A stretch of DNA of 64,000 nucleotides from Burkholderia sp. D-99 (lineage in GTDB: Bacteria; Pseudomonadota; Gammaproteobacteria; Burkholderiales; Burkholderiaceae), in assembly GCF_011605345.1 (NCBI RefSeq), contig NZ_JAAOXM010000010.1, positions 124,001 through 188,000 on the forward strand, written 5' to 3'. Both the position numbers and the translations under genes were made by a program. The notes under the pieces are model-generated. The model ran no database searches and was not told the origin of the DNA. It saw nothing but the letters and a program-made list of their open reading frames with translations. Shown one piece after another: positions 33,165-54,141 of this stretch (position 1 is its first letter; every line of letters starts with the position of its first letter).

Positions 33165-33576
33165 TGCAAGACGGCCGGCGGTGCGTTGCGCGGCCGGCCG
33201 AATCCGCATCGACCGACACGGCGGTTTCGGCCGCCGGCGTTTCCGGATCGCCTTTTCATCGCCCTTTTCAACCCGGATATCGACTGCCGCCCGATTTCCA
33301 ATCCGGTTCGATTCAGCACCGATTTCACGGGATAAATGACGCGATGCGTCAGTATTCCGGCGCCGTCATTGCCCCGCCATTCATCATGAAATCCGGCCAT
33401 TTTTACCGATAATGCGTCGCCTGACCGCGTGATCGGACGCGATAAAAATGCGCGGCGAACGCATGGGCAAATGCAAAGGAAAGTTTGACGCGAGCCATTT
33501 GCCTGCGCGCTATGGCACACTTCGCGTCTCGCGTAATTTCCTTGCACCGGGCGCCCGGATTCCGCCCCATCCTGCC
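33165..33576. other. Intergenic region after porin
   Basis: 412 bp. A hairpin near the porin stop is listed separately. The rest is moderately AT-rich (33290-33420) and probably holds the promoter of the transglycosylase gene. Open frames here on either strand look like shadows. No operator or small RNA could be supported. Confidence 0.45.
33172..33200 (+). terminator. Hairpin after porin gene
   Basis: 8-bp stem CGGCCGGC / GCCGGCCG with a 13-base loop, starting 7 bp after the porin stop. There is no following T-run, so the terminator call is moderate. Confidence 0.4.
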
Positions 33577-37005: not shown

Positions 37006-37010
37006 GGCGC

Positions 37011-37490
37011 TCACTTCTCCTGAGTCGGCTTGAGTTCGGGCGCGTTCATGTCGTCGACCCACTGCAGCTCGGCGGTGCCGTTCTTGCGGAAATACACGCG
37101 CAGATAGCGCGACGTCGACGATTCCGGCTGCGGAATGGTCACGTCGATCGTCTTGCGCTCGGGCTGGATGCCGCGCTGAATGTCGTCAAGCGGCTGCGCA
37201 AACTCCCAGAACAGCTTTACCTTCTGCCCCGGCGTCACCTTGCAGCCGCACGCGAATCCGCCGCCGCCGCCGAATGCCTCGCCGTCTTCCCGTGCCGACG
37301 GATTGCCGAAGCACCCGGACTTGTGCTCGTTGTCGAGCCAGAACTCGTGAAGCTTGCGGCCGTACTCGTTATATCCGGTGACGCACACGTTGTGCGGTTC
37401 CGCCGACACGTCGACACCGTGCTTGCTGCATGCGGCGAGCACACCGAGCCCGACCAGCGCCAAAACGTGCATCCCTGCTCTGAATTTCAT
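37011..37490 (-). CDS. DUF3304-like lipoprotein, candidate immunity protein
   Basis: 159 residues with a lipoprotein signal ending LAAC (lipidated Cys21). The mature part resembles DUF3304 (TGYNEYGRKLHEFWLD, GGGGFACGCKV, PGQKVKLFWEF), the family encoded before Tle1-type effectors and thought to neutralise them in the periplasm. ATG 37490 has GAGGG six bases upstream; the GTG at 37502 is less likely. It ends five bases before the effector start. Confidence 0.78.
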   Translation of the reverse strand: MKFRAGMHVLALVGLGVLAACSKHGVDVSAEPHNVCVTGYNEYGRKLHEFWLDNEHKSGCFGNPSAREDGEAFGGGGGFACGCKVTPGQKVKLFWEFAQPLDDIQRGIQPERKTIDVTIPQPESSTSRYLRVYFRKNGTAELQWVDDMNAPELKPTQEK

Positions 37491-37873: not shown

Positions 37874-38766
37874 CGCTGTGCCCTCGGGTCGGTCGCATCG
37901 GCGATCGCCTCGTCATGTTCGAGCAACCGGTCGAGCAACGCATCGCACAACGCATCGTGGTCGTTGCGATGCAACGCGATGCATTCGTCGATCGCTGCAT
38001 TGCCGAGCGATACGGTGCGGTACATCGCCAGCGTCGCGTCGATCCGGTAGGCCAGCCGGTCGTCCGGCAGCCCGTGCGCATCCAGTAGCGCGTACAGGTT
38101 TCGCATGCTCGCATACGTGTCGAACGGATCGGCATCGACGGTGATCCGGCCGTTGCGCCGCAGCTCGGCGATCACCGCGTCCGGCCTGCCGTCGTGGCGC
38201 AATGCGTCGAGCTCGCGCGCATCCACGCGCGCATAGAAGATCCGTTCATGCCGGCGCGGGTGCCGCGCCGTCCCGACGACACCGTCGCGACCGACGTAGG
38301 TCCATGACACGCACGGCGACAGCAACGCCTGATAGCGCGATTCCGACAGCGCCCCCGCCAGCGTCTGGAACACCGCCGCGTCGTAAAACCGCAGCAGGCC
38401 GTCGCGATCGTCGGGCAGCGTCACGCGCGTCCTGACGCCAAGCTTCGGCGCGAGTTCGTCGAGCGGATAGACGCTGACCAGCGACAGAAACGCGAACGGC
38501 CGCCGCGCGAGCTGCCGTTCGAGCAACGCCGACACGTGCGGCGCACGATAGTCGCACACCAACGCGCAGACTTCCGGGTTGCTCGCTTCCGGCTGACCGG
38601 CGAGCAGGTTGTGAACCTGCCCTTGCGCGATCAGCTCGCGCCACGGCGCCGCGTTGATCGGCAGTTGCGACGCATCGGCCAGCAGATAGCGATGGGTATC
38701 CGGAAACGCCGTGTGCTCCGCGGCGGCGGTCGTTTCCCATGCCTGAAGCAACGTAGTCATCGCCAT
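37870..38766 (-). CDS. DUF4123 T6SS effector-loading adaptor
   Basis: 298 residues. The N-terminal part (HRYLLADASQLPINAAPWRE) and central PFAFLSLVSVYPLDELAP resemble DUF4123 (Tap/TEC) adaptors that load an effector onto its cognate VgrG. The start codon overlaps the VgrG stop (TGATG), which is typical. The cognate effector should be the Tle1-like protein at 34882. ATG 38760 is an alternative start. Confidence 0.83.
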   Translation of the reverse strand: MAMTTLLQAWETTAAAEHTAFPDTHRYLLADASQLPINAAPWRELIAQGQVHNLLAGQPEASNPEVCALVCDYRAPHVSALLERQLARRPFAFLSLVSVYPLDELAPKLGVRTRVTLPDDRDGLLRFYDAAVFQTLAGALSESRYQALLSPCVSWTYVGRDGVVGTARHPRRHERIFYARVDARELDALRHDGRPDAVIAELRRNGRITVDADPFDTYASMRNLYALLDAHGLPDDRLAYRIDATLAMYRTVSLGNAAIDECIALHRNDHDALCDALLDRLLEHDEAIADATDPRAQR

Positions 38767-41585
38767 CACCCGCGCGTGGCGATCGCTTCGTGGCGATGCG
38801 CGAGATCCCGCATGCATTCGACGCACGCGGGCTTGTTCATCGACGGCAACTGCACGTTCGCGGAACGCGGGCCGGTCAGCGTGTGCTGGGCCGCATGGAA
38901 CGTCGCCTTGCCGGGCGCACCGATCACGATGTCGTTGCCTTCCATCTTAAGGAACGCGTTGGCGGCCGTCAGCAGCAGCCGCTTCGGCGACTGCAGCGCG
39001 ACACTCGCCTGTGCGCTCGACACCGTCACCGCGCGCTGCGCATTGGCGTCGAGCGCTCCGGCGTTCTGCGCCTGCACGGTGACGGCGCCCGTCGCCGCGT
39101 GCAGCGCGATGCCGATGGCCGGCACCGGGCGAGCGCCGCCCGAGGTGCCGTGCGTGTACAGCGCGATGCCTTCCTTCGCGACGATGCTCGACTTGCCCTG
39201 GACCGTGACCTGCACGTCGCGTCCGGCGCTCAGCACGGTTTGCGTGCCCGACGTCCACACGTGGCTTCGCGCCGTCACCGCGGCAACGCCGGCCGCGCCG
39301 TGCGCGACAAGATGCGGATGCTGCCACGCAACCGCACCGCCGCCGCCGGCACCGCCCGCGCCGTTGCCTTCGCGCGTCGCGCCGATCGACGCCTGGCTCT
39401 GCTGCAGCCCCTCGATCGCCGCGAGCGGCGACGGGGCGGCGGTGGCGCCGGCACTCGCGGCACCGGGCTGCGCCGCACCCGCACCTGGCTCCGCACCCTG
39501 CTTGCGCGCGAAATCCGCGAGCCCTTGCAGCATCTCGCGTTGCTGCGCGAGCACCTGGCTCGCCGCGCTCGCGTCCATCTGGTTCACGCCCGGCGCCGTG
39601 CTGATCAGCAGGCCGGCGCCGGCCCGCAGCGCACCGGCCGCCTGCGTCGACAGTTCGGCGCCGTAGCCGCGATCGGCCAGACGCCGGTTGTCCTGTACCT
39701 GTTTGATGTGCCCGAGCGTCAGGCCGCTGCCGTGATCGGTCGTGTAAAGGCGTGCACTCGATTGGCCGGCCGTATCGTCGAGCATGAATTGCCGCGAGCC
39801 GCCCGCGCCGGTCTGGCTCGCGCTCATGTCCTGCGTCTTGAAGCCGGTCAGCACGGCCGCATGGTCGTTGCCGGCAAACCAGGCCGCCGAATTGGCCGTG
39901 CTGCTGCTCGGGCCGCCCGCGAGCGCGTTGTGCTGCGCGTCGGCGTTGCCCTGCCCGTTGTATAGCGCGGCGACCGCGACCGGCCGGTCCGGCTGGCCTT
40001 CCAGCCACTCGGTCCAGACTTCCTGACCGACGCGCGGCACGCTCACGCCGCCCCAGTTGTCGCCGCCGACCGGGGTCACCATGCGCGTCCAGGTGCCGGC
40101 GCCGCGATCGGCCGGCGCATTCGCCGCGCGCGGATGCGCCTCGCGACTCGCGGAATTCTGCCCGCGCTGCGCGTGATGCTGGATCCGGATCCGGTGATCG
40201 CGTTCGGTGTGAACCGGATCGCCCGCGCCGACCACGACGGTTGTCTGCGCGCCCGGCATCACCGCGACCGGATGCACGCGCGCACCGTGCCCGTTCGGCG
40301 CCAGCGGCCGATAGGCCTGGTCGAACGGCAACGCAGCGAAGCGATTCCGGTACACCTCGTCGCCGTCCACGAGCGCGCCGCCGGCGTGCGTCGTGGCGTC
40401 GAATGCCGCACGCAGCGCCTGCGCGCCGCCGTATCCGACTGACTCGCCGGGCGCGGCGTCGAGCATCGGCGGAATCGCGCCCAGTCTCTGCGCGATCGCG
40501 CCGTGCACGTCGGCGCCGACGTTCGCGCGCGCGTCGTGCTCGACGCGCAGGCACACGAACGCGTGCGATGCATCGAGCGACGGATGCTGCGACATCGCGA
40601 AATGCAGCCCCGGCCGCAGATCGCGACGCGTGCCGCTGCCTTCGGCCTGCAGCGCCGCCACGCGCTGTGCGTCGAGTTGCTGCTGGGCGCGCTGGTCGCC
40701 GATCGCGGCAGTCTGGAACGCGTACGGGCCGGCGACGTCGCGATCCTCGCCCGGCACGACCGCGCCGATCGCGCGCACGTCGGACGGACGGGTCGACAGG
40801 TTTCGATGATCCCAGCTTGCGCGCGCGACGCTGCCGATGCGCCAGCGGCGCGCATGCAGGAAGTGCCGGATACCGCCGCGCGGATCGCCGTCGCTCGTCT
40901 GATGGAAACCGACGACCTCGGGTTCGGCCGGGTCGAAACGCTGGTTCGTATCGGCGAGGACGAGCGTGTGCTTGCCGAGGTTCGTCGACTGCGCGTCGCC
41001 CTCGTGTTCGAACCAGTAGAAGATGCCCTCTTCCGCCCACAGACGTTCGAGAAACGCGAAGTCCGATTCGCCGGCCTGTGCTGTCAGACTGCGGCTCGCA
41101 TATCGCGCGGGGTCGGCGAGCGCCCAGCGCCATGCCGGCGCGACCGCGCCACGCGCGTAGTGCGCGAAGACCTGTTCGCTGATCTCGACCACGCTCGCGT
41201 TCACGAAGTTGTAGCTGTCGACGCGCTGCTGCAGCAGCGCGAGCCACGGTTCGACGACGAGCCGCACGCGCGCGAGCCCGCCGTTGTAACCGACGAGCTC
41301 CGCGGCAATCACATGGCCGTGGAACGGGCGCCGTACGTCCTGCCCGTCGGCGGCCTGCCATTCGATGAGGATCGGCGCACCGATCAACTTGTCGAGCGGC
41401 ACGTCGGGACGCTCGGTCAGCGCGGTGACCTGGAACCGGAAGCCGCCGCGATCGAGCGACTCCCATCCGTGCAGACTCTCGGCGACGAGTTTGTCCACGC
41501 CGAGCGGCGTGGTCAGCCACAGGAACCGGTCGTGCTGCGACCAGCCGCGGAAGAACGCCTGGATGAGGTCAGATTGGGTCGACAT
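38766..41585 (-). CDS. vgrG: VgrG tip protein, module A
   Basis: 939 residues of the T6SS spike trimer subunit. Gp27-like N-terminal domains run to about residue 400, and the gp5-like OB/needle region includes TPVGGDNWGGVSVPRVGQEV and QPDRPVAVAALYNGQ. A DUF2345 C-terminal region follows (GRDVQVTVQGKSSIVAKEGI) with no extra effector domain beyond it. It ends with a Cys-containing tail (NKPACVECMRDLAHRH) similar to the end of the module C VgrG. First gene of module A, 73 bp after the second immunity candidate. Confidence 0.93.
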   Translation of the reverse strand: MSTQSDLIQAFFRGWSQHDRFLWLTTPLGVDKLVAESLHGWESLDRGGFRFQVTALTERPDVPLDKLIGAPILIEWQAADGQDVRRPFHGHVIAAELVGYNGGLARVRLVVEPWLALLQQRVDSYNFVNASVVEISEQVFAHYARGAVAPAWRWALADPARYASRSLTAQAGESDFAFLERLWAEEGIFYWFEHEGDAQSTNLGKHTLVLADTNQRFDPAEPEVVGFHQTSDGDPRGGIRHFLHARRWRIGSVARASWDHRNLSTRPSDVRAIGAVVPGEDRDVAGPYAFQTAAIGDQRAQQQLDAQRVAALQAEGSGTRRDLRPGLHFAMSQHPSLDASHAFVCLRVEHDARANVGADVHGAIAQRLGAIPPMLDAAPGESVGYGGAQALRAAFDATTHAGGALVDGDEVYRNRFAALPFDQAYRPLAPNGHGARVHPVAVMPGAQTTVVVGAGDPVHTERDHRIRIQHHAQRGQNSASREAHPRAANAPADRGAGTWTRMVTPVGGDNWGGVSVPRVGQEVWTEWLEGQPDRPVAVAALYNGQGNADAQHNALAGGPSSSTANSAAWFAGNDHAAVLTGFKTQDMSASQTGAGGSRQFMLDDTAGQSSARLYTTDHGSGLTLGHIKQVQDNRRLADRGYGAELSTQAAGALRAGAGLLISTAPGVNQMDASAASQVLAQQREMLQGLADFARKQGAEPGAGAAQPGAASAGATAAPSPLAAIEGLQQSQASIGATREGNGAGGAGGGGAVAWQHPHLVAHGAAGVAAVTARSHVWTSGTQTVLSAGRDVQVTVQGKSSIVAKEGIALYTHGTSGGARPVPAIGIALHAATGAVTVQAQNAGALDANAQRAVTVSSAQASVALQSPKRLLLTAANAFLKMEGNDIVIGAPGKATFHAAQHTLTGPRSANVQLPSMNKPACVECMRDLAHRHEAIATRG

Positions 41586-41658: not shown

Positions 41659-42585
41659 CTACTCGGTCAGTTCGACGGCCGGCAGCATGTCCATTCGCGT
41701 AAACATCTCGCCCTTCATTTCGTCGGGCGACTGAATGTTGACCTTGAGTGCGCCTCCCATCCGGTACGTGCCCGCATGGATCTGCCGTGCAGACGAGTCC
41801 GGATCGAACGTCACCTCCGTATAAGGCACGACGAATTCGACCTTTACCGTCTGCCCCGGTTTGATGGCAATTGACGGAGCATAGGATCCGGATGCGGCAG
41901 TCAAGTACTTCGCAACGAGTCTGACCTTGAAGTTGACACCGGAGTCGCCGAGTCCATGGATCTGAAGGTATTGCACATTCGGATTCGTAATTTTCGGCAC
42001 CCATTCGGCAGGACCGTCAATAACGACGTCCTGTTCTCCTTCATTCCTGAACACGACATCGACCACCAGATTTCGCGACGCAGAACGCACGGAAAACTCC
42101 GGATGCAGATTGATTTCCGGCTTGCCATGCTCAAGTAGATCCAGTGCAAGCTCAGCAAGAAACGACAGCTTGCCGTTGATCTCGTCACTGGATCGATACT
42201 GAAGACTGCCGTGGTAACGCGTTCCATTCTGATCGAACGAATATCTCAGGACCGATCCGATATTCCGGCCCGGGACAGACTCGACCTCGTGATTGACCAG
42301 AATCTGCTTGATCTGATCGATCGCCCGACGATATCCGTCGCTCAGTTCTCCCGTGTATTTTCCGATTCCCACATACTTCGGCGGCGGCATGAGATCAAGA
42401 TCCAGTCCACGCGAATAGTAGGCGGCACGATTGCCGTCGAACGCGAGAGCCAGCGGAGGCAAAGGCTTGCTCTGCCCGGGGCTGTCCGCGATCGTGAAGT
42501 AATCTATCTTTGTTTCAGCCACTGCCATGTCCGTCGCACAGGGAAGCAATGCCACCAACACCAGGATTCGTATAACGCGCATCAC
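41659..42585 (-). CDS. Exported protein, candidate immunity (paralogue 2)
   Basis: 308 residues with a signal peptide (MMRVIRILVLVALLPCATDM, cut near AVA). It is clearly homologous over its full length to the adjacent 308-residue protein, sharing PEFSVRS, VQYLQI-type and VPYTEVTFDPDS-type segments. No known family is recognised. Position after a metallopeptidase-tipped VgrG and periplasmic targeting make it a likely immunity protein. Its GC content is near 52-55%, well below the flanking VgrG cores. Confidence 0.75.
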   Translation of the reverse strand: MMRVIRILVLVALLPCATDMAVAETKIDYFTIADSPGQSKPLPPLALAFDGNRAAYYSRGLDLDLMPPPKYVGIGKYTGELSDGYRRAIDQIKQILVNHEVESVPGRNIGSVLRYSFDQNGTRYHGSLQYRSSDEINGKLSFLAELALDLLEHGKPEINLHPEFSVRSASRNLVVDVVFRNEGEQDVVIDGPAEWVPKITNPNVQYLQIHGLGDSGVNFKVRLVAKYLTAASGSYAPSIAIKPGQTVKVEFVVPYTEVTFDPDSSARQIHAGTYRMGGALKVNIQSPDEMKGEMFTRMDMLPAVELTE

Positions 42586-42592
42586 GTGAGGG

Positions 42593-43519
42593 TCACTTCC
42601 CCGTCAGGTTCACGTTTTCCAACCGATTCGTCGGCGTGAAGATCCGTCCGTCCATTTCCTGCGGACGCAGGATGTCGACGTTCATCTTGCCGGCGAAGAC
42701 GTAGGTGCCGGGCTCGACACGGCGCATCGGCGAATCGGCGTCATAGGTCAGATCTGCGTAAGGCACGAGGAATTCCATCTTCTCGGGCTGACCGGGCTTG
42801 ACGACGATTTCGCGCCGATAGTGGCGCGATACGTCACTCAGATATTTGCTGACAAGCCTGACGTCGAAACCCACGAGTTTGTTGCCGCCGCTGATCTCCA
42901 TGTATTGCACATCGGGCCTCGCCAGATCTGGCGACCAACGATCAGGACCGTCGATCGCCACATCCTGCTTGCCATCGTTTGCGAACGTCACGTCGACGAC
43001 AAGATGGTCGGCGGTGGATCGCACCGAAAATTCCGGATGAAAATTGATCTCGGGCGTGCCACGCGCCAGCAAATCGTGGGCAAGGTCATAAAGCGCCGAA
43101 AGGTTCTCGTTGAATTGATCGTCGAACTGATAGTTGTACGTGCCCTCGTAATGGTGGCCATCCTTGTTGAACGAATAGACGAGCACGGACCCCTTATTGA
43201 TTGCGCGGATCTGGGGGATTGTCCTGCTGCTCAACGTCGCCTTGACCATATCGACATGCTGGCGATAGGTTCCCGTGAGATCCGCCGTATATTTCCCGAT
43301 TCCGACGTAACTCGATGGCGGCATCGGGTCGATGTCCCGCCCACGCGAAAAATATGACACCGTTTGACCATCGGCCGTGAAGACCATCGATGGCGACGGA
43401 TTGAGCTGTCCCTGTCCGCTACGAATCTCGAAATAATCCGGACGATCATGTGCAAGCGTCATTTCCGCCACCCCGAAAGAAATCGTTGACATCACCAGGA
43501 ACAGGATCGAGCGCTTCAT
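42593..43519 (-). CDS. Exported protein, candidate immunity (paralogue 1)
   Basis: 308 residues with a signal peptide (MKRSILFLVMSTISFGVAEM, cut near TLA). The ATG at 43519 overlaps the VgrG stop (ATGA), so it is made with the toxin, as expected for immunity. It shares PEFSVRS, DGKQDVAIDGP, VRLVSKYLSD and VPYADLTYDADS with its downstream paralogue. The periplasmic destination matches a toxin acting in the periplasm. No family name is recognised. It is low in GC relative to neighbours. Confidence 0.78.
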   Translation of the reverse strand: MKRSILFLVMSTISFGVAEMTLAHDRPDYFEIRSGQGQLNPSPSMVFTADGQTVSYFSRGRDIDPMPPSSYVGIGKYTADLTGTYRQHVDMVKATLSSRTIPQIRAINKGSVLVYSFNKDGHHYEGTYNYQFDDQFNENLSALYDLAHDLLARGTPEINFHPEFSVRSTADHLVVDVTFANDGKQDVAIDGPDRWSPDLARPDVQYMEISGGNKLVGFDVRLVSKYLSDVSRHYRREIVVKPGQPEKMEFLVPYADLTYDADSPMRRVEPGTYVFAGKMNVDILRPQEMDGRIFTPTNRLENVNLTGK

Positions 43520-46500
43520 TTCAGCACCTCCCATTCAATCCCGGTTTTCTTGTTGAACCAGTTGCGGAAGCTGTACATGTAGTGCTTCGCAATTTCCGGC
43601 TTCTCCGTGTACACCCCCCGGCCCATCAAGTTCGTGGGGGTGTCGCGCTGCCAGTTGTCGACAAGCTGGGCCATCTTCACGTCGACCAGGTGTTGCGAGT
43701 TGATGTATTTGCCATACACCGACCCGCCATCCAGGAAATACTCATCGGGCCAGCCGAACAGGTGGCCGGCCTCGTGCACGATCGTATGTTGCGTTTTCAG
43801 CGGCACGTACCGATTCTCCCGGCCGTTCCACTGGACGTTCACTTCCCCCCAGTTCCCCGAATCCGCCCGGGTCGCCATCGGAAACAGATTGACCTCCGCA
43901 TGGCATCGCCCAATTTGAACCAGTTCGACTTCCAGTCTCAGCTTGACCTTGCATGTACATGCACTACCCAGCGGGCATTCTTTCGGCTGCATCGAATAGT
44001 TCCCTCTATTCAGCCCGTCCTCGATGCGCTTCTTGAAGCCCGACGATATGGGACCCAGACCACCCGGCCGGTCCACGATCTTAATCACCAGGTCTTTACG
44101 GTTTCCATCGCTATTGAACGGCACCGAGAACGGTTTTCCTGTCGATGGATCCATGTAGACGGTTCCGTCTTTGATCCAGTACTGGTCCTTCAGGTTGACC
44201 TTGATATAGATCATCGCCGTCACGGTCGCCGTCGCGGGTGCGTATTCGATGTCATACGAATCCTCCGTGCCGGACATATTCAGCCAGATTCGCTTCTTGT
44301 CCTTGAGCACCGCCTTGCCGTCCTCTCCCGTCTGGTAATAGCTGACGCATCCGGCATCGACCGTATGAAGCTCGGTGGAAATCGCGGGGACGTGAAGATT
44401 GCACGTCCCGCTTTGCGCAGCCGGGCCTTTCTTCGGCATGCCTTCCAGTTCGCTGGACACCGGCGGCGGAGTCGAATAACCGAGCGACGGGCCGGGCGCC
44501 GCATTCTGTCCCGACGAAGCGGGTACCGGTGCCGGCATGGATCGACTCGACTCATCTGCCAATGCCTGCGGGACAAGCGGCAAGTTACCTGCTCCCGGAG
44601 CCGGCATGTCGGCCATCAAAGCCGTCGCGCCCGACGCTGCCCCGCTCCATGTCGCCGCCCCCACCGCACTCACCCCCGCCGCCACCACCCCTCTCCCCGC
44701 CGGACTCGCCGCCAGCGCCTGTACGAGGAAGTCACACGGATCGCCCTGCGGCAACACCGGCAGCGCCGGCAGCTTCACGCTCGTCGCGCGCGGCCCCGGG
44801 AACGGATGCCCGCCCGACTTCACCGCGAACTGCCCCGGCGTCTCGACGATGATGTCGCCGCCCTTCAGCGTGATCCGGTTCGGTCCCTGCTGCAGCACGA
44901 TCGCATCCTGCGCGAGCACGTCGACGCGCTCGTCGGTCGACGTCACGCGCACGGTCTGGTCCGCGAGAATCTCCATCGTCGACGCGTGCGCCTCGACGCT
45001 CACCGGCCCTTCGCCCGCGATCGCCTTGAGCCCGCCCGCCACGCTGTACAGGCTCATCGCATCGCCCGTCGCCGCGGCCACGGTCGCACCGGCGCCCACG
45101 TGCGCGTCGCCCTGCGACGTCACATGAACATGCTGCGCCGCATACGACACCGCGCTGTCCGGCGTCGTCACCACGATGTTCTCCGGCGACTCCATCAGCA
45201 CCGCGGGTGTCGCGAATCGCTCGACGGGATCGCCGCCGTCGCGCTGCGTGCCGCTCGGCTTGGTCGCGCTCTGGCCGCCCACGCTCCCCGCATACTTGCC
45301 GTCCTGCGCAGGATCGATCGCCTTCAGGAAATCCGTCAGCGCCGCGTTCGCGCTCAGGCCGACCGCCTGCGCGCCGGTCGCCGCCGTGTCGAGCTCATGC
45401 GCGGTTTTCGCCGCGTCCTTCAACTGCTCCACGCGTTCGGCGACGTCCATCTGCGTCGACGCACCGAGCTGACGCGCGGTACTCGATACCAGCAGGCCCG
45501 CGCCGGCCCGCACGACGCCCCAACCCTGCGTCGCCAGTTCGAAGCCTTCGCCGCGATAGGCGCCGCGCATCGTGCCCTGCTGGTCGATCAGATAGCCCTG
45601 CGCGAGGCGCGTGCCGGCTGTCGAATTGTTCAGCTCGTGGCGCAATTGCCCGGCCGCATCGTCCATCACCCAGCGGCTACCCGGTTGCCCGTCGAGCGTT
45701 TGCGTCTGCAGGCCCGTCAGCGATCCTGAATGATTCGCGTCGCTGCCTTCGCCGGCCGAGAACGGCGGACGCACCCGGCCGCCGTACACCTGCCCGAGCA
45801 CGACGGGCGCATCGATGTTGCCGGACTCGAAGCCGACCACCACCTCCGCCCCCACGCGCGGCGCGAACGCATGACCGAAATTCGGCCCGGCGGCCTGTTC
45901 GGCGACGCGGACCAGGATGCCCGACCGATGGTCGCCCGGCGCATGGCCGGCCGGATTGGCGCGGCTCGCCGTATCAGTCAGCCCGCCCGGCAGCGGTGCG
46001 ACCCCGCGCATCCATGGAAACTGGATGCGGACCTGGTGATCGCGCGTGCTGCTGACGCGGCCGCCCGGCTCGCCGACCACGATCGCGGCCTGCACGCCAT
46101 GCACCGTCGGCCGGTCGCGATGCGGCGGCACGATCGGCGTGCCTTCCGGCACCGCGACGAAGCGGTTGCGATACAGGCCCTTCTCGAGCTCGCCGCGTCC
46201 GAACAGCTGCCCGATCTGCGCGCCGAGATTGTTGACGGCCTCGTGCTCGATCGACAGCGGCACGAACCGCACGGGGCCGCCCAGATAATCGTTCAGCGTA
46301 TGCACCCTGCCGATCTCGAGCGTGCGCGACGAACCGCCGCCACGGTAAATCCGCTTCGCGAGTTGCAGCGCGTCCAGACGCTGCTCGGCGTAGCGCTGCG
46401 CGTCGCCGCTCGTGTCGAAGCGGCCGGCACGCTGGCCGTCGTAGACCTCCCGCACCGGCAGCAGCGGCGCGTCGGCGTCGGCCGGCTGCTGCGCCTGGCC

Positions 46501-47247
46501 GGCCAGCGCAACGAGCTCGCTGGCTTTCCAGCTCGTCGCCACCACGCGATCCGGCACGAGCTGACGCCGATCGGAGAATTGCGTCATCACGCCGTCCGGA
46601 TCACCGACGTCCTGCGCATTGAATGCGATCGCGCTGCCGTCGGGCAGCCGCGCGTGGCGGTCGAACACGACGACCGTATGATCGCCCGACGGTGCGTTCC
46701 GCGCGTCCTGCCCGTGCTCGACGCGAAACGACAGCCCGGCTTCCGACAACTGCCGCAACACGAAATCGAGATCGGTTTCGCGATACTGGCCGCGCAGGCG
46801 GAACGCACGCAGCGGCTCGATCCGCTCGTAGCGCCGATGCGCTTCCGGGTAATCGCCAAACACTTGCTCGCAGATGCCCTCGGCATCGAGATCGACGAAA
46901 TACAGGCAATTGCGGCGCAGTTGCAGCAGCGCGAGCCACGATTCCATCGTCAGCCGATAGCGCGTGAACTCGCCATCGCTCTCCGCATACGCGGCATGCG
47001 TGACGTAACCGTTCCAGCAGCGTTCGCCCGCCGCCGTCGCGAGACGCAGCCGCACGGCGCTGCCGATCAGCGGCGCCAGATCGAGAAACGGCTCGCTCGA
47101 CAGCACGTCGATCTCGAACCGGAACGATTCGCTGATCCCTTCACGACCATGAAAGCGCTCGACCACGAATGCCCCCGGCATCGCGGTATCGATCTGGATA
47201 TGGCGGGTCGCTTGCCCATATCCCGTTAATGCGGCAACAAGATCCAT
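43516..47247 (-). CDS. vgrG: Evolved VgrG with C-terminal metzincin-like metallopeptidase
   Basis: 1243 residues. VgrG gp27/gp5-like core to about residue 700, then DUF2345 (FAVKSGGHPFPGPRATSVKLP), a Pro/Ala/Ser linker (about 880-945), and a C-terminal domain from about 949. That domain has HEAGHLFGWPDEY (His1158, Glu1159, His1162, Asp1168) giving HExxHxxGxxD, followed by TNLMG as a possible Met-turn, which is metzincin-like. Six Cys (949, 967, 1091, 1097, 1099, 1115) suggest disulfides, hence action in the periplasm. ATG 47247 is preferred to TTG 47262. Two exported candidate immunity genes follow. Analogous in design to P. aeruginosa VgrG2b. Confidence 0.9.
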   Translation of the reverse strand: MDLVAALTGYGQATRHIQIDTAMPGAFVVERFHGREGISESFRFEIDVLSSEPFLDLAPLIGSAVRLRLATAAGERCWNGYVTHAAYAESDGEFTRYRLTMESWLALLQLRRNCLYFVDLDAEGICEQVFGDYPEAHRRYERIEPLRAFRLRGQYRETDLDFVLRQLSEAGLSFRVEHGQDARNAPSGDHTVVVFDRHARLPDGSAIAFNAQDVGDPDGVMTQFSDRRQLVPDRVVATSWKASELVALAGQAQQPADADAPLLPVREVYDGQRAGRFDTSGDAQRYAEQRLDALQLAKRIYRGGGSSRTLEIGRVHTLNDYLGGPVRFVPLSIEHEAVNNLGAQIGQLFGRGELEKGLYRNRFVAVPEGTPIVPPHRDRPTVHGVQAAIVVGEPGGRVSSTRDHQVRIQFPWMRGVAPLPGGLTDTASRANPAGHAPGDHRSGILVRVAEQAAGPNFGHAFAPRVGAEVVVGFESGNIDAPVVLGQVYGGRVRPPFSAGEGSDANHSGSLTGLQTQTLDGQPGSRWVMDDAAGQLRHELNNSTAGTRLAQGYLIDQQGTMRGAYRGEGFELATQGWGVVRAGAGLLVSSTARQLGASTQMDVAERVEQLKDAAKTAHELDTAATGAQAVGLSANAALTDFLKAIDPAQDGKYAGSVGGQSATKPSGTQRDGGDPVERFATPAVLMESPENIVVTTPDSAVSYAAQHVHVTSQGDAHVGAGATVAAATGDAMSLYSVAGGLKAIAGEGPVSVEAHASTMEILADQTVRVTSTDERVDVLAQDAIVLQQGPNRITLKGGDIIVETPGQFAVKSGGHPFPGPRATSVKLPALPVLPQGDPCDFLVQALAASPAGRGVVAAGVSAVGAATWSGAASGATALMADMPAPGAGNLPLVPQALADESSRSMPAPVPASSGQNAAPGPSLGYSTPPPVSSELEGMPKKGPAAQSGTCNLHVPAISTELHTVDAGCVSYYQTGEDGKAVLKDKKRIWLNMSGTEDSYDIEYAPATATVTAMIYIKVNLKDQYWIKDGTVYMDPSTGKPFSVPFNSDGNRKDLVIKIVDRPGGLGPISSGFKKRIEDGLNRGNYSMQPKECPLGSACTCKVKLRLEVELVQIGRCHAEVNLFPMATRADSGNWGEVNVQWNGRENRYVPLKTQHTIVHEAGHLFGWPDEYFLDGGSVYGKYINSQHLVDVKMAQLVDNWQRDTPTNLMGRGVYTEKPEIAKHYMYSFRNWFNKKTGIEWEVLK

Positions 47248-47359: not shown

Positions 47360-49762
47360 TCATTGCGGGAACATCCCGTTCATGTTGATCTTGTACTGCA
47401 GCATCTTGCGCTGCGCCTCCATGTCTTCCTGCACGCTCGGTACGTGGGGCGCATCCCAGCGCACGCCGTTCACGAAGACGGTGCGCCAGCGCAGGTAACC
47501 CCACACGAACGAAAACTCGCGCCCCGAATCCTGCAGCGCGAGACCGCCCGTGACATCGGGATCGGTCAGCACCGCGCTGTCGGTCGGCGCATTCGCGTCC
47601 TTGGCCGCGCGCGCCTTCTGCGCGGCCTGCTGCGCGGCGTCGTAGCGCTTCAGGATGTCGGCCTGCTGTGCGCTCAGCGGCGAACGCGGTTCGGGTTCCT
47701 GCACCGCGCTGACCCCGGGCCCGAGTCCGAGCGCGCTCGCGCCCATCACCTGCATGATCTGCGACGGCCCGGGCAAGCCAAGTTGCTGACGCTTCTGCCA
47801 CGCCGCGTGCTGGCGCTCGAATTCGGCCTGGCGGGTTTTCAGCGCCTTGATCTGGTTGTGGTTCCAGACGTCGTCGTCGTCGCCGAGCGGCTTGAACCAC
47901 GCGCGCGAGTCGTGCATGAAGTTGTCGTACAGCGCGCTGATCGGCGCCTCCGGCGGCCCCATGTTCCAGTCGCCCCTCACCTCGAGCCACTGTTGCCACT
48001 TTTCGTCGAGCTGCAACTGGAAGAAATCCTCGGCGCGCTTCGCGCTCGCGCGCACCACCGGACCGACGAGCGGAATCGCGGACTGCAGGCCCTGGACGAT
48101 CGGCAGCACGGCCGGGGAGATGACGGCTGCCGCCTTCGGGTTCTGCGTGAGCTTCTTGCTGACCGCGTTGCCCGCGTAGCGGCGCACGGTCGGACCGCCC
48201 TGCTTCTCGCACTCGAGCAGGTCGCGCCATTCGAGCCGCAGTTCCTCGTTCGCGCTGTCGAGATCGACGGCATCCTGCGGATACGCGGCCTTCGCGGCAA
48301 GAAACGATGGTTGCGTACGCAAGTTGTCGAGGCGCATCTTGCGCCAGCGCAGGTACAGCCCGTAGTGCGCGCGCATCAGGCCCGGCGTGCCGTGTTCCTT
48401 GGCGTAGTAGTAGTCCGCGCTGGTTCTCACGTAGGCGGAAAACGCGCGCTTGAGCGCGGGCGAAATCGCGAACGCCGCGGCCGCTTCGGCGGCGACGCCG
48501 GGCCCGTTGATGTCGAGCGGAACACCGGCCTTGCGCGCTTCACGATACATGTCGAGCAGCGGCACCTGCGACAGCTTGTCCGCATCGCCCGTGCCGCGCC
48601 CTTGCTCGCCCGGCCCGTAACCGCCGCCGACGTCCGAATGGACACCCGGATAGACGATCTCCTCACGCCCGTCCGTCGACGCATCGATCAGGTCGAGCGG
48701 GAACGATCCGCGCGGTTCGTGTGCGGCAACCATGTGGACGCAGCGGCGGATGGAGTACGGCAGCCCCATCAGCTCCTTGCGCCCCCAGCCGCCGTGCCCG
48801 TCGAACAACGTCGCGGCCGTGCTTTGCGCGATGCCGACCGACGCGACCGTATCGAACAGGCCGAGAAAGTCGTACGACACGGGCACGCCGCACAGGCTGA
48901 AATCGGCGTCGAGCGCATCGTTCAGCCAGTTCGAGAACGTGCGTGCTTCGGCCGCACCGCGCGAAAAGCCGAACACGTACAGGCGGATGCGCTGCAGTTT
49001 CGGCTTGCCCTTGACCAGCAGATCGCCGACGCGCGCCTTCAACTCCGCGCAACGGGCCTGCAGCGCGACGCGCCGCTTGTCGTCCCACGCGCGCATCGTC
49101 GCGGTCCAGTTCGCCGTATCGACTTCGCCCTTGAGCTGCGCCCAGATCGTGTCGCGATCCCAGGTCAGCTCGATCCCGTTCTGCTCGGCCGCCATCAGCT
49201 TGAGCGCGCCGACGCTCGAGCTGCCGCGCGCGTTGATGTCGCCGAGACTGCCCGGCTTGGGCGGCGTGCCGCCGAGATCGATGCCCTTGAAATTCAGGTC
49301 GACGCTGACGGCCTTCGCGAGCGCCTTGTCGCTCTTGCCGAGCGCTGCGGACAGCGAATTGCCGAACGCGTGCGCATGCACGACGTTGTGGATCTGCAGC
49401 AGCGCCCAGTTGATACGCCCCTCGCCGGCCCACCCCGTCGCGGCGCCCGCCGCGGCCTGCAACCCGACGCCCTGGTCGCCGATCTCGTCGACGAACGGCG
49501 TGCCGACGCCCGCCACGTAGATGGCGCTGTGATACTTGTCGCGGGGAAACACGTCGAACAGGCGAGCGACGTTGCTGTGCTTGCCGCCGGCGCGATCGCG
49601 ATCGGCGTTGTTGCGCGTGCCGTCGAAGAAAATGCCGACATGCAGCGTCTTGCAGCAACTCATCCCGTCGTCGTCGTGCAGGCGGCGCATGATCGCGTCC
49701 TGCTCCTCCGGGGTGACGACCCCGACGTCCGGCCGGTCAGCGCTCGCGAAGCGGAAACTCAT
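47360..49762 (-). CDS. Tle1-type phospholipase T6SS effector (DUF2235)
   Basis: 800 residues with all family marks: FFDGTRNN (45-52), nucleophile elbow GFSRGA (Ser267), GLFD (Asp304) and HSDVGGGY (His375), giving a complete Ser-Asp-His triad. Tle1 effectors are phospholipases injected into the periplasm of rivals. No signal peptide. The C-terminal half (from about 400) is helical and Gln/Ala-rich with a conserved-looking FSFVWGYLRWRTVFVNG near the end. The start at 49762 overlaps the lipoprotein gene (ATGA). Last gene of VgrG module C; the next VgrG starts 112 bp further. Confidence 0.92.
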   Translation of the reverse strand: MSFRFASADRPDVGVVTPEEQDAIMRRLHDDDGMSCCKTLHVGIFFDGTRNNADRDRAGGKHSNVARLFDVFPRDKYHSAIYVAGVGTPFVDEIGDQGVGLQAAAGAATGWAGEGRINWALLQIHNVVHAHAFGNSLSAALGKSDKALAKAVSVDLNFKGIDLGGTPPKPGSLGDINARGSSSVGALKLMAAEQNGIELTWDRDTIWAQLKGEVDTANWTATMRAWDDKRRVALQARCAELKARVGDLLVKGKPKLQRIRLYVFGFSRGAAEARTFSNWLNDALDADFSLCGVPVSYDFLGLFDTVASVGIAQSTAATLFDGHGGWGRKELMGLPYSIRRCVHMVAAHEPRGSFPLDLIDASTDGREEIVYPGVHSDVGGGYGPGEQGRGTGDADKLSQVPLLDMYREARKAGVPLDINGPGVAAEAAAAFAISPALKRAFSAYVRTSADYYYAKEHGTPGLMRAHYGLYLRWRKMRLDNLRTQPSFLAAKAAYPQDAVDLDSANEELRLEWRDLLECEKQGGPTVRRYAGNAVSKKLTQNPKAAAVISPAVLPIVQGLQSAIPLVGPVVRASAKRAEDFFQLQLDEKWQQWLEVRGDWNMGPPEAPISALYDNFMHDSRAWFKPLGDDDDVWNHNQIKALKTRQAEFERQHAAWQKRQQLGLPGPSQIMQVMGASALGLGPGVSAVQEPEPRSPLSAQQADILKRYDAAQQAAQKARAAKDANAPTDSAVLTDPDVTGGLALQDSGREFSFVWGYLRWRTVFVNGVRWDAPHVPSVQEDMEAQRKMLQYKINMNGMFPQ

Positions 49763-50367
49763 GGCGCGATCCTCTTGTCGGGATTCGGGCACTGCGGATC
49801 GCTGTTGCGCAACGTGAAGTGCCCCGGACACGCTTCAGCGGGCGCCTGAAGATTTTCAGGAAAGCCGCGGTAGCCGGGCATCCACTGCGACGCATAGACC
49901 TTGATTCGATCGTGCGGAAAGAACAGGACCCACAGGAAGCCGTCCGAGAACGCGTCGTAGCGCTCGACCGGCACGACGCGGCTCGCAAGCGCCTTCGGAT
50001 CCTTCTTGTACAGGTTGTCGTCCCGCCACTGCAGGTTGACGGTCAGCCCCGGATGCCATTGCTTCGGCAACGCGACACAGCAGATGATCGCGCCGCCGCC
50101 GCTGCCGATGCGTGCCGGAACCGCCCCGCCCCAGGTACCGTCGACATAAAACGCGCCGATCGGAACGTCGGTGTAGTTGAGGGCATTCAGCTTCAGCCCC
50201 ATCGTGTCGGGCGCGGCCGACGTGCTCGACACGCTCGACGCCCCCGGCGCCCCCGGCGCCGAAGACGACACGTCGGTCGCACGCGAACATCCTGCCGTCC
50301 CCAGCAGGATGGCCATGAACATCAGCAGCCGAGCGGCAAACGTCGTGGAACCGGCATTCAGACTCAT
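49759..50367 (-). CDS. DUF3304 lipoprotein, candidate Tle1 immunity protein
   Basis: 202 residues with a lipoprotein signal ending GTAGC (Cys27). Mature DUF3304 features: LNYTDVPIGAFYVDGTWGG, GGGAIICCVALPKQWHPG and LWVLFFPHDRIKVYASQW. It is co-encoded with the Tle1 effector by ATGA overlap. Periplasmic lipoproteins of this family are the usual immunity partners of Tle1 phospholipases. Confidence 0.87.
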   Translation of the reverse strand: MSLNAGSTTFAARLLMFMAILLGTAGCSRATDVSSSAPGAPGASSVSSTSAAPDTMGLKLNALNYTDVPIGAFYVDGTWGGAVPARIGSGGGAIICCVALPKQWHPGLTVNLQWRDDNLYKKDPKALASRVVPVERYDAFSDGFLWVLFFPHDRIKVYASQWMPGYRGFPENLQAPAEACPGHFTLRNSDPQCPNPDKRIAP

Positions 50368-50485: not shown

Positions 50486-51343
50486 CTATGCGGACGACGT
50501 AGCCGGCGCCGGCTCCGTCACCAGGTACCCGGCCGCCGCGAGCGCATCGAGCGCGACCCGCGCCGCCGCCGCGCGCGGCCCGTCGTGCCGCGCCCACGCC
50601 GCGCTCACGCACGCATGGGCTTGCGCCGGCGTTGCCACCAGCCGGCCGAAACTCTCCGGACGCTGGCGGACATGAAAAATCAGCGTGTCGACCTTCGCGG
50701 CCTGCCGCAGCCGTTCGACCTGGTCCTCGTCGAGCACGTAGGGCTCGCCGCTGCGCCCGGCGTCCGTTTCGCCGACGGCCGCTTCGCTCGCGGTGTCGAC
50801 ATCGAGCGCCATGAGCGCCCCGGTGCGATCGAACACGTGCCACGCATCGATGCCGTCCGTGAAGCGGCGACGCTGCGCGGGCGTGAGCGCCTCGAGCCAG
50901 GCCGGCACGCAACGCGTATCGGCGAGACGCACCAGGAACGCTTCGCCGTCGGCCGCCGCGCTCGCCTCCATCTGCCCGCGCAGATGCGCGGCGAGCGCGT
51001 CCGTATCGCGCGCACCGCGCAACAGGCTCACCATCGGACGTCCCGACGTCTCGCGCAGCATGGTCCCGAGCATCGCCGTGCGCGCTGCCGCGTCGGCAGG
51101 CAACGGTACGAGGCAGGGCGAAATCGCCAGCAGGTCGTCGCCGTCGTACACACCTTCGTACAGCACGACGACGGCATCGTTGCGGTCGACGGCGGGCATC
51201 CGGTCATGCAGCGCCGGCGCGAACCCCATGTCGAGCAGCAGATGCCAGCGGCCAGCGGCCGGCGCGCGCTCGAACAGTGCGTTCAGCCGGTCCGGCGTGT
51301 CGTCGGGGTAGCGGTCGATCCAGTCGGTCGTCTCGATCATCAT
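50486..51343 (-). CDS. DUF4123 T6SS effector-loading adaptor
   Basis: 285 residues with DUF4123-like composition: RWHLLLDMGFAPALHDRM at the N-terminus, VVVLYEGVYDGDDLLAISPC and GRPMVSLLRGARDTDALAAH centrally. It begins 2 bp after the module C VgrG stop and precedes the immunity/Tle1 pair, so it should load the Tle1 effector onto that VgrG. ATG 51343 or 51340 may be the start. Confidence 0.83.
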   Translation of the reverse strand: MMIETTDWIDRYPDDTPDRLNALFERAPAAGRWHLLLDMGFAPALHDRMPAVDRNDAVVVLYEGVYDGDDLLAISPCLVPLPADAAARTAMLGTMLRETSGRPMVSLLRGARDTDALAAHLRGQMEASAAADGEAFLVRLADTRCVPAWLEALTPAQRRRFTDGIDAWHVFDRTGALMALDVDTASEAAVGETDAGRSGEPYVLDEDQVERLRQAAKVDTLIFHVRQRPESFGRLVATPAQAHACVSAAWARHDGPRAAAARVALDALAAAGYLVTEPAPATSSA

Positions 51344-51345
51344 GC

Positions 51346-54141
51346 TCAGATCGCCTTGCCCGCAAGCGCGCTGCCCGACTGCATCGCGTGCAGCAGGCAT
51401 TCGACGCAGACCTTCTCGGGAAACTGCGGCAACGGCGTACTCATTTGATCGGGGCCCACGAATGCATGCTGCGCGGCGTACACGACGAATTTGCCCGGGC
51501 AGCCGAACGTGACGTCGCCGCCTTCGATCGTCACGTGCGCGCCGCCGCTCACCGCGAGATGCACGGTCTTCTTCGCGGCAACCTCGACATCCGCGCTCGC
51601 GGACGCGACCTTCAGATCGTCGCGCGCACGCAGGCCCAGCGCGTCGCGCTGCGCCTGCAGCGTCAGTCCGTCCTTGCCGGCGATCATGCTCATGCCGACG
51701 CCGTCCGCGTGGCTCGCGCCGGCCAGCCAGCCGATGCCCTGCCCGCTGTGAATGCGCAGCTGCTGCGCGGCGGCGAGATTGAAGTCGGCACCGCTGCCGA
51801 GCGACAGCGTTTCGCCGGCCGCCCATTGCAGCGCCTGCCCGGCGATCAGCCCGTGTCCGCCCCGTGCCTCGATGCCGAGCACCGCGTCACCCGTATGCGG
51901 CAGTGCGTTGCCGGTCGATCGCTGTGCGGCATCGGCCGATGCCTGCGCGTAGCCGTTCGCGCCGACCGTCGTCGCGAAGCTCTGCGCGAGCGCGTCGAGC
52001 GGCGCGGCCTTGCCGTTCAGCGACGACTGGCCCGCCTGCTCCACGCCGCGCTGCGCGGCGAACGGCAGCGTCCTGTGCGTATCGGCCGTCTTGTCGAACC
52101 GGCCGACCAGCGCGGCGTGCCGCGCGAGCAGCGCCTGCAGCGCGGATGCATCGCCCGCCGGCTGCGCGGCGCCGGCAGGCGCATAACTCGACACCAGCAA
52201 GCCGCGCGTCGCACGCATCGCACCATACGCGTCCGAGCGCAATTCGACGCCCTCGCCGCGAAAGCTGCCGAGATAGTTGTCGGACTGATGACGCAGATGA
52301 CCGAGGTTCAGTTGCGTCGCCGCGTGCGTGGTCGCCATCTGCAGGCGTCCCATGCCGTCGGAATCGTCCGCGACGAGCTGGTTGTGGCCCTGCCCGTCGA
52401 ACCCCTGGCTCTTGAAGCCCGACAGCGCGCCGGCGTGATGGTGGCGATCCGTGCCGCCGCCGGCGCCGTGCCACGCGGGGCTCAGCCCGCTCGCGAGATT
52501 GCCCTGCGCGCTCGGCGCATGGTCGCCCGCCTGCGTGTAGATCGATGCGTCGAGCGGTTTCCCGGCCACACCGCCCGGCGAAGGCGACTCGCCGCCTTCG
52601 CCGCGGCCGTTGAACAGGCCGCCGAGCACGATCGGCCGGTGGATCAGCCCATGGTGAAACTGCACGAGGACTTCATGGCCGATGCGCGGCACCTGCTGAA
52701 GGCCGTGCCCGTCGCTCGCGAGCCGTTGAATGGCGCGCGTCGGATAGGTGCCCGCATCGTCTTGCGCCTGCCAGTGGAACCGGACGCGCAGGCGCCCCTG
52801 CGCGTCGGCATGCACCGGCCCCGTCGAACCGGGCTGCGCACTGCCGGTCGGACCGACGACGATCGCCGTCTGCGCGCCCAGCGCCGTCGCGACCGGATTG
52901 AGCCGCTGCCCGGTTCCGTCCGCCAGCGTGGGCCGCCAGACTTGCGTGCGCGGCACCGCATCGAACCGGTTCGCGTAACCGCCGGCCTTCGCTTGCCGGA
53001 GCACGCGCGGATCGAGCTCCGCCGCGGGCAACGGTCCGAGTTGCCGCTCGATGGCTTCCATGACGGTCTGCGGGAGATTGTTGATCCCGACGTGCTCGAC
53101 GTGCGTCAGCAGAAAATCCTCGGGCGCCGCGGCGCCGCGCACGGCTTGCCAGCCGGAATCGACGAGCTTCAGCGCGCGCCCGGCGCGCGCCGTGCGCAGC
53201 GTGCCGTAGCCGGTCCAGAAACATGCGCGCGACACGATCGCGTCGGCCTGGCGCCGCGCCGCGTCTTCCGCGTCGCGCAGGGTGTCGAACGCCTCCGGCC
53301 CGACGTCGTCGTAGAGCTCGCGCGTGCCGTTCGGCCGGCCGAGATGCGTGCTCGCGGTGGTCGCGCGGTTCGCGCGGTAGTCGCTGCTGATCAGCGTGAT
53401 GCGATCGGCCGTCAGCGACAGCGACTGCCCGATCCCGAGGATCACGTCGTCGGCGTCGGTCGCCGTCCCGCTCGAGCGGCGCGGCACCCCGCCGCGTCGC
53501 GCCGACGTATCGTCCTCGGCCAGTTGCGCGCTGTCGTCGAAGACCAGCATCGCATGCCCGGCGGGCGCGTCCTCGTCCTCGACGAAGCAGAACCCGAGGC
53601 CGGCCTCGGCCAGCAGATGCTGCACGAATTCGTAGTGCGTATGAGTGCGGTACTGCACGCGATACGCAACCGGGGCCAGCGCGTCGAGACGCCGGCTCGC
53701 ATCCGGCGTGAGGCGCCACCGCGCGATTCCCGCGTACGGTGCGAACACCGTGTCGAGCACGTCGGCGAGCGTCTGGTTCACAAAGGTGCGCTCGTCGCGC
53801 GCATGCGTGAGTGCCGCGAGCCACGGCACGATCTGGAGGTGGTAGCGAGCGAGGCCTGCGTCGTAACCGATGCACTCGGCCTCGGCGACGAGTCCGCTGC
53901 GCAGCGTCGTCGTGCCGTTCGCGAGCGTGGTGCGGATCGCGACACGCTGCCCGAGCATCGCGTCGAGATCCAGTGCGGGATCCGTCGACAGCGCATCGAC
54001 GTTCCATTGAAAGAGATCGGAGAGCGATTCGCGGCCGGTCCAGCGCTCGATTTGAAATGCAGCAAGTGCACCGGATCCGTCCAGCGAATACAGGCGATTG
54101 AACGCGCCGAACAAAGACGCAAATTCCTTGATGACGCTCAT
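51346..54141 (-). CDS. vgrG: VgrG tip protein, module C
   Basis: 931 residues. Gp27-like N-terminal domains, then a gp5-like segment (QVPRIGHEVLVQFHHG, RPIVLGGLFNGRG), then a DUF2345 C-terminal region (VEVAAKKTVHLAVSGGAHV) without an added effector domain. The tail EKVCVECLLHAMQSG resembles the end of the module A VgrG. First gene of the minus-strand island, diverging from the PAAR gene. Confidence 0.93.
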   Translation of the reverse strand: MSVIKEFASLFGAFNRLYSLDGSGALAAFQIERWTGRESLSDLFQWNVDALSTDPALDLDAMLGQRVAIRTTLANGTTTLRSGLVAEAECIGYDAGLARYHLQIVPWLAALTHARDERTFVNQTLADVLDTVFAPYAGIARWRLTPDASRRLDALAPVAYRVQYRTHTHYEFVQHLLAEAGLGFCFVEDEDAPAGHAMLVFDDSAQLAEDDTSARRGGVPRRSSGTATDADDVILGIGQSLSLTADRITLISSDYRANRATTASTHLGRPNGTRELYDDVGPEAFDTLRDAEDAARRQADAIVSRACFWTGYGTLRTARAGRALKLVDSGWQAVRGAAAPEDFLLTHVEHVGINNLPQTVMEAIERQLGPLPAAELDPRVLRQAKAGGYANRFDAVPRTQVWRPTLADGTGQRLNPVATALGAQTAIVVGPTGSAQPGSTGPVHADAQGRLRVRFHWQAQDDAGTYPTRAIQRLASDGHGLQQVPRIGHEVLVQFHHGLIHRPIVLGGLFNGRGEGGESPSPGGVAGKPLDASIYTQAGDHAPSAQGNLASGLSPAWHGAGGGTDRHHHAGALSGFKSQGFDGQGHNQLVADDSDGMGRLQMATTHAATQLNLGHLRHQSDNYLGSFRGEGVELRSDAYGAMRATRGLLVSSYAPAGAAQPAGDASALQALLARHAALVGRFDKTADTHRTLPFAAQRGVEQAGQSSLNGKAAPLDALAQSFATTVGANGYAQASADAAQRSTGNALPHTGDAVLGIEARGGHGLIAGQALQWAAGETLSLGSGADFNLAAAQQLRIHSGQGIGWLAGASHADGVGMSMIAGKDGLTLQAQRDALGLRARDDLKVASASADVEVAAKKTVHLAVSGGAHVTIEGGDVTFGCPGKFVVYAAQHAFVGPDQMSTPLPQFPEKVCVECLLHAMQSGSALAGKAI

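Follow-up and report, generated by a model that had tools for sequence, protein, structure and literature searches.

A Burkholderia VgrG with a predicted Asp-ligand, metzincin-like peptidase domain and a co-diverging candidate immunity gene

VgrG2b of Pseudomonas aeruginosa (6H56) is a specialised VgrG of the type VI secretion system (T6SS), with a DUF2345 spike extension, a TTR-like linker, an HExxH C-terminal domain and a downstream immunity gene, PA0261 (PMC6899460). The C-terminal domain of VgrG2b is a gluzincin, whose third ligand, Glu983, is located on a later helix, and its authors reported no success in identifying a substrate (PMC6899460). Here, we describe a vgrG (tssI) gene from a 64,000-nucleotide stretch of the genome of Burkholderia sp. 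D-99 (assembly GCF_011605345.1, contig NZ_JAAOXM010000010.1, positions 124,001 to 188,000), referred to as the window. The encoded protein resembles VgrG2b in architecture and is likewise followed by a candidate immunity gene. It differs in its C-terminal 295 residues, the warhead, which have no sequence match to VgrG2b and contain an HExxH motif followed by a conserved Asp. We propose, with a probability of roughly 0.7, that the warhead works as an exported, zinc-dependent antibacterial protease and that the neighboring gene encodes its antidote.

Effector domains at the C-termini of VgrG proteins have been described in Burkholderia. BCAL1359 and BCAS0667 of B. cenocepacia have such domains, and a legend citing Aubert 2015 marks a 'metalloprotease domain' on TssI of strain J2315 (PMC6612558). 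A VgrG of B. cenocepacia has thus been labelled a metalloprotease before. BCAL1359 is similar to the window protein as a TssI with a C-terminal effector domain, and its locus number lies among tssI and tle1 loci (BCAL1355-BCAL1366); the metalloprotease label was given in silico and may refer to an Asp type or a VgrG2b type (PMC6612558). A PVC-type metallopeptidase with a Glu ligand was noted on a Burkholderia T6SS tail protein (PMC3482391). The PVC-metallopeptidase and Tox-MPTase1-5 domains are zincin-like domains that end polymorphic toxins, but the former have the signature HExxHxxQ-E, with Glu as a ligand, and the latter are described by signatures without HExGHxxxxPDEY (PMC3482391). No Asp-type T6SS metallopeptidase is named in the titles and abstract openings searched, which is no proof of absence, as most subscription papers lay outside the search. 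Among the literature searched, the gluzincin is the only kind of VgrG-borne metallopeptidase that has been characterised.

Domain layout, putative zinc site and fold

The vgrG frame encodes 1243 residues counted from an ATG codon, and an alternative TTG start is possible five codons upstream. The protein is a specialised VgrG (TssI), composed of GPD (residues 35-340), OB (445-488), T6SS_Vgr (518-623) and DUF2345 (672-819) domains, all above Pfam cut-offs, and an additional domain formed by residues 949-1243. TIGR03361 and TIGR01646 also match the protein above their NCBIfam cut-offs. Past residue 819 there is no Pfam match above cut-off, and the warhead itself has no Pfam or NCBIfam assignment above cut-off. 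The original prediction of a VgrG with a 295-residue tail containing a zinc motif, a TNLMG segment and six cysteines is accurate, and had omitted the strand, which is minus.

Genus and family searches listed 42 distinct places of the domain, 32 of which were taken as loci; L015, with an in-frame stop, and L008, L009 and L020, from the same contigs as L003-L005, were left out, and L052, from a viral collection, was added to give 32 domains. The conservation counts below refer to these 32 aligned homologous domains, the window member included. A close clade of nine domains comprises the window warhead and those 46-90% identical to it, whereas the identity is 24-35% in the far clade, as aligned in profile A2 (30 of the 32 domains, without L033 and L052), and 29% in L052.

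The HEAGH segment begins at residue 1158, and the pattern HExGHxxxxPDEY is invariant in the 32 domains. M1208 and G1209 are also present in all of them and follow the Asp at a spacing of 40-54 residues. The conservation of these residues is more than a chance pattern in the alignment. Downstream of the motif, no Asp, Glu or His column is invariant; the best later columns are His at 1178 (23/32, Tyr in the window), Asp at 1189 (23/32) and Glu at 1225 (21/32, Tyr in the window). By elimination, the third protein ligand of the putative zinc site is most likely Asp1168, as had been predicted, or the adjacent Glu1169. The predicted form of the motif, HExxHxxGxxD, holds for the His, Glu and Asp residues but not for the Gly, which is not a feature of the family (Gly in 9, Asn in 19, Ser in 3 and Ala in 1 of the domains). 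At this position, 28 domains, including that of the window, strictly fit the G/N of the metzincin consensus, and four depart from it. TNLMG is present at residues 1205-1209 and its MG is invariant, whereas its role as a Met-turn is putative. The six cysteines of the tail are at positions 949, 967, 1091, 1097, 1099 and 1115, but just four are conserved: C1091 and C1097 in 32/32 domains, and C1099 and C949 in 31/32. No conservation of C967 and C1115 was found across the alignment.

The metzincin consensus is HExxHxxG/NxxH/D, with Asp in the third position in snapalysins, thuringilysins and, with one extra residue, in IgAse, in which Glu and Tyr directly follow the Asp; the motif of metzincins is followed by a Met-turn and then a C-terminal helix (PMC12237041). 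The window domain contains the zinc motif, Glu-Tyr, the conserved Met and a C-terminal helix, predicted after M1208-G1209, in the metzincin order, which suggests a metzincin-like fold. It shares the HExxHxxG/NxxD-type motif and the order of a putative Met-turn and a predicted C-terminal helix with snapalysin (M7), immune inhibitor A/thuringilysin (M6) and IgAse (M64, motif one residue longer), and Glu-Tyr after the Asp with IgAse. Snapalysin, immune inhibitor A and IgAse are secreted enzymes and are not known as VgrG tips. Comparisons of residues 949-1243 with hidden Markov models of these families gave weak matches confined to the motif, and the curated models stay below cut-off. The M6 model TIGR03296 reaches 26.9 bits over 20 residues, against a cut-off of 110.8 bits. 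The M7 models PF02031 and NF033628 match 5 of the 30 profile members, with best E-values of 0.018 and 0.031, respectively, and the M64 model PF09471 matches one of the 30 (E 0.17); the window member is matched by neither family. In a comparison with M6 sequences, for which 8 of 12 M6 loci yielded a usable stretch, the profile match disappears once the HExxH motif is masked and is unchanged by masking of the MG stretch. The motif-borne matches point weakly to Asp-ligand metzincins. A further difference is the C-x5-C-x-C cluster upstream of the motif, which the descriptions of these enzymes consulted do not mention. The AlphaFold model of the domain is of middling confidence, and its zinc-motif stretch has a predicted local distance difference test score below 50. 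DUF4136 (PF13590) matches five of the 30 profile members, with a best E-value of 0.0034.

Alternatively, the warhead may be a zincin of the Asp-zincin or minizincin type, similar to PF06262, which lacks a true Met-turn and in which the invariant MG has another role. Members of PF06262 have the motif HExxHxxGxxD without a Met-turn (PMC3890501), and PF06262 is the sole Pfam match of the window domain scanned alone (E 0.022), below cut-off at 15.2 bits against a gathering threshold of 22.4. The indifference of the M6 score to masking of the MG stretch is also in line with this fold. However, PF06262 proteins stop soon after the motif (PMC3890501), whereas 73 residues remain after Y1170 in the window domain, and the invariant M1208-G1209 with the predicted helix behind it follows the metzincin order. 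We consider the minizincin type unlikely.

Candidate immunity genes and proposed role

In 32/32 loci, an open reading frame (ORF) of at least 110 amino acids starts -26 to +40 nucleotides from the stop codon of the toxin. A simple hydropathy window detects a hydrophobic N-terminus in most of these downstream ORFs, with a weakest score of 0.8. The sizes of the script-picked ORFs are 308-315 amino acids in the close clade, 425-498 in the far clade, where several are limited by the end of the fetched stretch, and 291 in L052. After exclusion of L028, 31 putative antidotes were compared. Those of the close and far clades are related (hhalign 98.4%, 206 columns), and that of L052 joins the far clade at 99.7%, compared with just 33.4% directly against the close clade. 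By these profile comparisons, the 31 predicted antidotes form one superfamily. None of the eight antidotes tested reaches a Pfam cut-off.

The candidate antidotes follow the warhead in occurrence and in divergence. Homologs of the window antidotes are present in 8 of the 65 genomes of the genus, namely in all seven with a close-clade warhead and in G001, which has antidotes and no warhead match; the seven genus genomes with a far-clade warhead have no match using the window antidote as a query. Toxin and antidote distances are correlated with r of 0.93 (31 pairs; none of 2000 permutations as high). In the 19 loci with a core, the correlation is 0.95 for toxin and antidote, 0.82 for toxin and core, and 0.88 for antidote and core, and the partial correlation of toxin and antidote after removing the core is 0.84. 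The antidote gene is adjacent to the toxin domain, co-inherited with it and co-diverging from locus to locus, which marks the two at the level of sequence as a putative effector-immunity pair.

We hypothesize that the specialised (evolved) VgrG carries a 295-residue, zinc-dependent, metzincin-like endopeptidase with Asp as the third zinc ligand. The endopeptidase would be an antibacterial effector with the periplasm of the attacked cell as its site of action. The product of the gene that overlaps the vgrG stop codon would be exported and protect kin, and a second copy of the antidote is encoded next to it. Together, warhead and antidote would be a single cassette, acquired horizontally and diverging fast, that was joined to a conserved VgrG behind its DUF2345 spike.

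It is also conceivable that the warhead is active mainly against eukaryotic host proteins, as an anti-host effector; the downstream proteins would then be accessory or secreted along with it. An earlier proposal gave VgrG2b a role in eukaryotic cell entry (PMC6899460), and some Asp-ligand metzincins cleave animal proteins, as IgAse does IgA (PMC12237041). Pairing and co-divergence of neighboring genes, antidotes without a warhead match in G001 and duplicated antidotes are, however, typical of antibacterial pairs, and the warhead is present in two further genera, one member being Paraburkholderia silviterrae; an anti-host role appears improbable. PVC-type metallopeptidases are thought to be releasing peptidases in other systems (PMC3482391), and the warhead could be no toxin itself but a tip that processes itself or has a structural role (cargo carrier), releasing or binding another effector. 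Such a role is highly unlikely for a domain that forms the C-terminal end with nothing after it, diverges much faster than the core and is adjoined by a partner gene in 32/32 loci.

Several loci depart from the arrangement of one warhead and an intact neighbor. In G001:C30 (L077, 5185-6634), short VgrG-like pieces lie beside two antidote homologs, the first nearly full-length and the other partial. Three tandem antidote copies follow a single warhead in G009:C1 (2267412-2270341), compared with two in the window. In L079 (G352:C86, 4943-7173), fragments of a Tle1-like gene extend to the final 76 residues of a peptidase domain, behind which lies a nearly full-length antidote homolog; this is a degraded locus that retained the antidote. 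The antidote ORF of L028 (G373:C106) is just 123 amino acids long and is followed by another ORF, and the warhead frame of L015 (G003:C6) has one in-frame stop; both are probably broken genes.

A warhead slot shared with VgrG2b-type domains

The GC contents of the warhead and of both antidote genes are similar to each other and lower than that of the VgrG core (Table 1). In five sibling genomes, a core stretch of 221 residues (600-820) is 94-96% identical to that of the window, whereas the warheads are 90, 81, 70, 59 and 54% identical. Warhead and antidote form a conserved and apparently mobile effector-antidote cassette. The same core stretch matches 15 places in 13 of the 65 genomes (E up to 1e-30). 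Six of these places are frames of 1259-1285 amino acids with a window-type warhead, five are frames of 900-936, and four (L080, L101-L103) are frames of 1126-1130 that have a HEMTHVWQ domain with an EQQGN segment at the end and a small exported-looking ORF downstream. Genome G031 has both kinds of warhead. The corresponding slot of a sibling species, syntenic with that of the window, is L080, with Tle1, the VgrG core (81%), the warhead, the small ORF and the next VgrG in the order of the window. As judged from its match to 6H56 (4.1e-29), the warhead of L080, the one tested of the four, is of the VgrG2b gluzincin type. In Burkholderia, both kinds of warhead are found on related VgrG cores and share a locus slot. 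The small ORF downstream is its own, and neither window antidote matches anything in L080 by tblastn.

With L080 as a control, neither the window domain nor the profile of 30 members matches 6H56 (E up to 10). At E up to 1, PF13699 (DUF4157/eCIS_core) does not match the window domain either, but its silence adds little, since L080, a true relative of VgrG2b, is also below the cut-off at just 0.036 and the model is insensitive here. The alignment of the window family to a crude control set of gluzincins by hhalign scores 0.6%; the set consisted of eight PF13699 loci (13 places found; L061 and L066 overlap) and L080, with the first HExxH stretch used in loci that had several. Beyond the adjacent DEY, the 32 domains have no invariant Glu column that would correspond to Glu983 on the later helix of VgrG2b (PMC6899460). 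The original prediction of a VgrG with its own metallopeptidase-type tip, with an Asp ligand unlike VgrG2b, is supported by the absence of a 6H56 match, the invariant D1168 and the lack of a later invariant Glu. That prediction did not include the neighboring pair of exported-looking genes, the low GC content of the cassette, the gene pairing across the family or the slot in common with a VgrG2b-type tip. That the warhead is merely another, divergent VgrG2b-type gluzincin is thus very improbable, despite the common architecture and gene pairing, the true VgrG2b relative in the same slot and the poor test offered by PF13699.

T6SS island, distribution and implications

The island around vgrG contains three VgrGs, a Tle1 with a Tli1a-like partner, two DUF4123 adaptors, a second Tle1-like gene and a PAAR gene, and is similar to the triple tssI clusters of Burkholderia described in PMC6612558. 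The second Tle1-like lipase gene (window 34882-37062; PF09994, 7.7e-12) is located downstream of a DUF805 protein gene and a DUF4123 adaptor gene, and an ORF at window 33448-34833 has a lytic transglycosylase (SLT) domain and a CagX match. The whole genome has 16 T6SS_Vgr matches and four matches to the sheath protein TssC.

Table 1 Features of the vgrG locus and its neighbors (window coordinates)
Feature	Position	Strand	Details
Next VgrG	38766..41585	minus	Downstream of the candidate immunity genes
Second candidate immunity copy	41659..42585	minus	308 aa; 46% identical to the first; GC 54.9%
Candidate cognate immunity gene	42593..43519	minus	308 aa; GC 55.9%; ATG overlaps vgrG stop (ATGA); hydrophobic signal-peptide-like N-terminus
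vgrG (tssI)	43516..47247	minus	1243 aa; specialised VgrG with C-terminal peptidase-like domain
C-terminal warhead	43519..44403	minus	Residues 949-1243 (295 residues); GC 56.0%
Putative Met-turn	43621..43635	minus	TNLMG, residues 1205-1209
Putative zinc motif	43738..43776	minus	HEAGHLFGWPDEY, residues 1158-1170: two His, catalytic Glu, presumed third ligand Asp1168, then Glu, Tyr
Conserved cysteine cluster	43951..43977	minus	C1091-C1097-C1099 (CPLGSACTC)
Pro/Ala-rich linker	44404..44787	minus	Residues 821-948
VgrG core	44788..47247	minus	Residues 1-820 (GPD, OB, T6SS_Vgr, DUF2345); GC 69.0%
Tle1-like phospholipase effector	47360..49831	minus	Upstream neighbor of vgrG; PF09994, 1.2e-25
DUF3304 protein, Tli1a-like	49759..50367	minus	Tli1a model below cut-off; probable lipase immunity protein
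DUF4123 adaptor	50486..51349	minus	Start not fixed; PF13503, 4.1e-19
Third VgrG of the island	51346..54141	minus	

Of 65 genomes of the genus, 14 have a homolog of the warhead. A sample of 398 genomes from the family contains 34 with the domain, distributed among 3 of 25 genera; both counts include the window's own genome. In the class-level sample, 2 of 369 genomes gave matches, namely the window's own and one whose match is confined to 28 residues at the motif. Named carriers include B. cenocepacia NCTC13227 (69-70% identity), B. puraquae CAMPA 1040 (58%) and Paraburkholderia silviterrae (46%). On present sampling, sequence similarity delimits the warhead as a narrow family of Burkholderiaceae. 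L052 (IMGVR_UViG_3300048929_000226) has, by eye, a VgrG-like frame with the warhead and the relative of the antidote, and is probably bacterial DNA within the viral set. Six other entries of the viral collection (L053-L057, L059) have HEVGHAL[YF]TPDEY at residues 63-89, in frames that are 105 to 728 residues long, and are apparently unrelated to the window domain. Outside the family, a 1080-residue frame with HEIGHTYGFCDEY (L075, G433:C38) resembles the window domain in the motif alone. In L078 (G395:C5, 4845-7566), the warhead ends a 1222-residue frame, and a second, partial warhead about 1.5 kb downstream is reminiscent of orphan toxin modules.

If window-type and VgrG2b-type warheads are interchangeable on one VgrG chassis, a single slot of this weapon would have been filled by two zincin subclans, presumably with related targets in the envelope. 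We see an even chance that the locus represents an Asp-ligand metzincin class of T6SS effectors paired with exported metallopeptidase inhibitors of a new family, on a chassis shared with the unrelated VgrG2b-type gluzincin. A second kind of zincin that is unrelated by detectable sequence similarity and has a different antidote, on a common chassis and in a common slot, provides a natural comparison. If the mode of inhibition is binding, the antidotes would form a new family of proteins that inhibit metzincin-like enzymes. If both zincin kinds cleave the same envelope protein, this target would be a recurrent weak point of Gram-negative cells.
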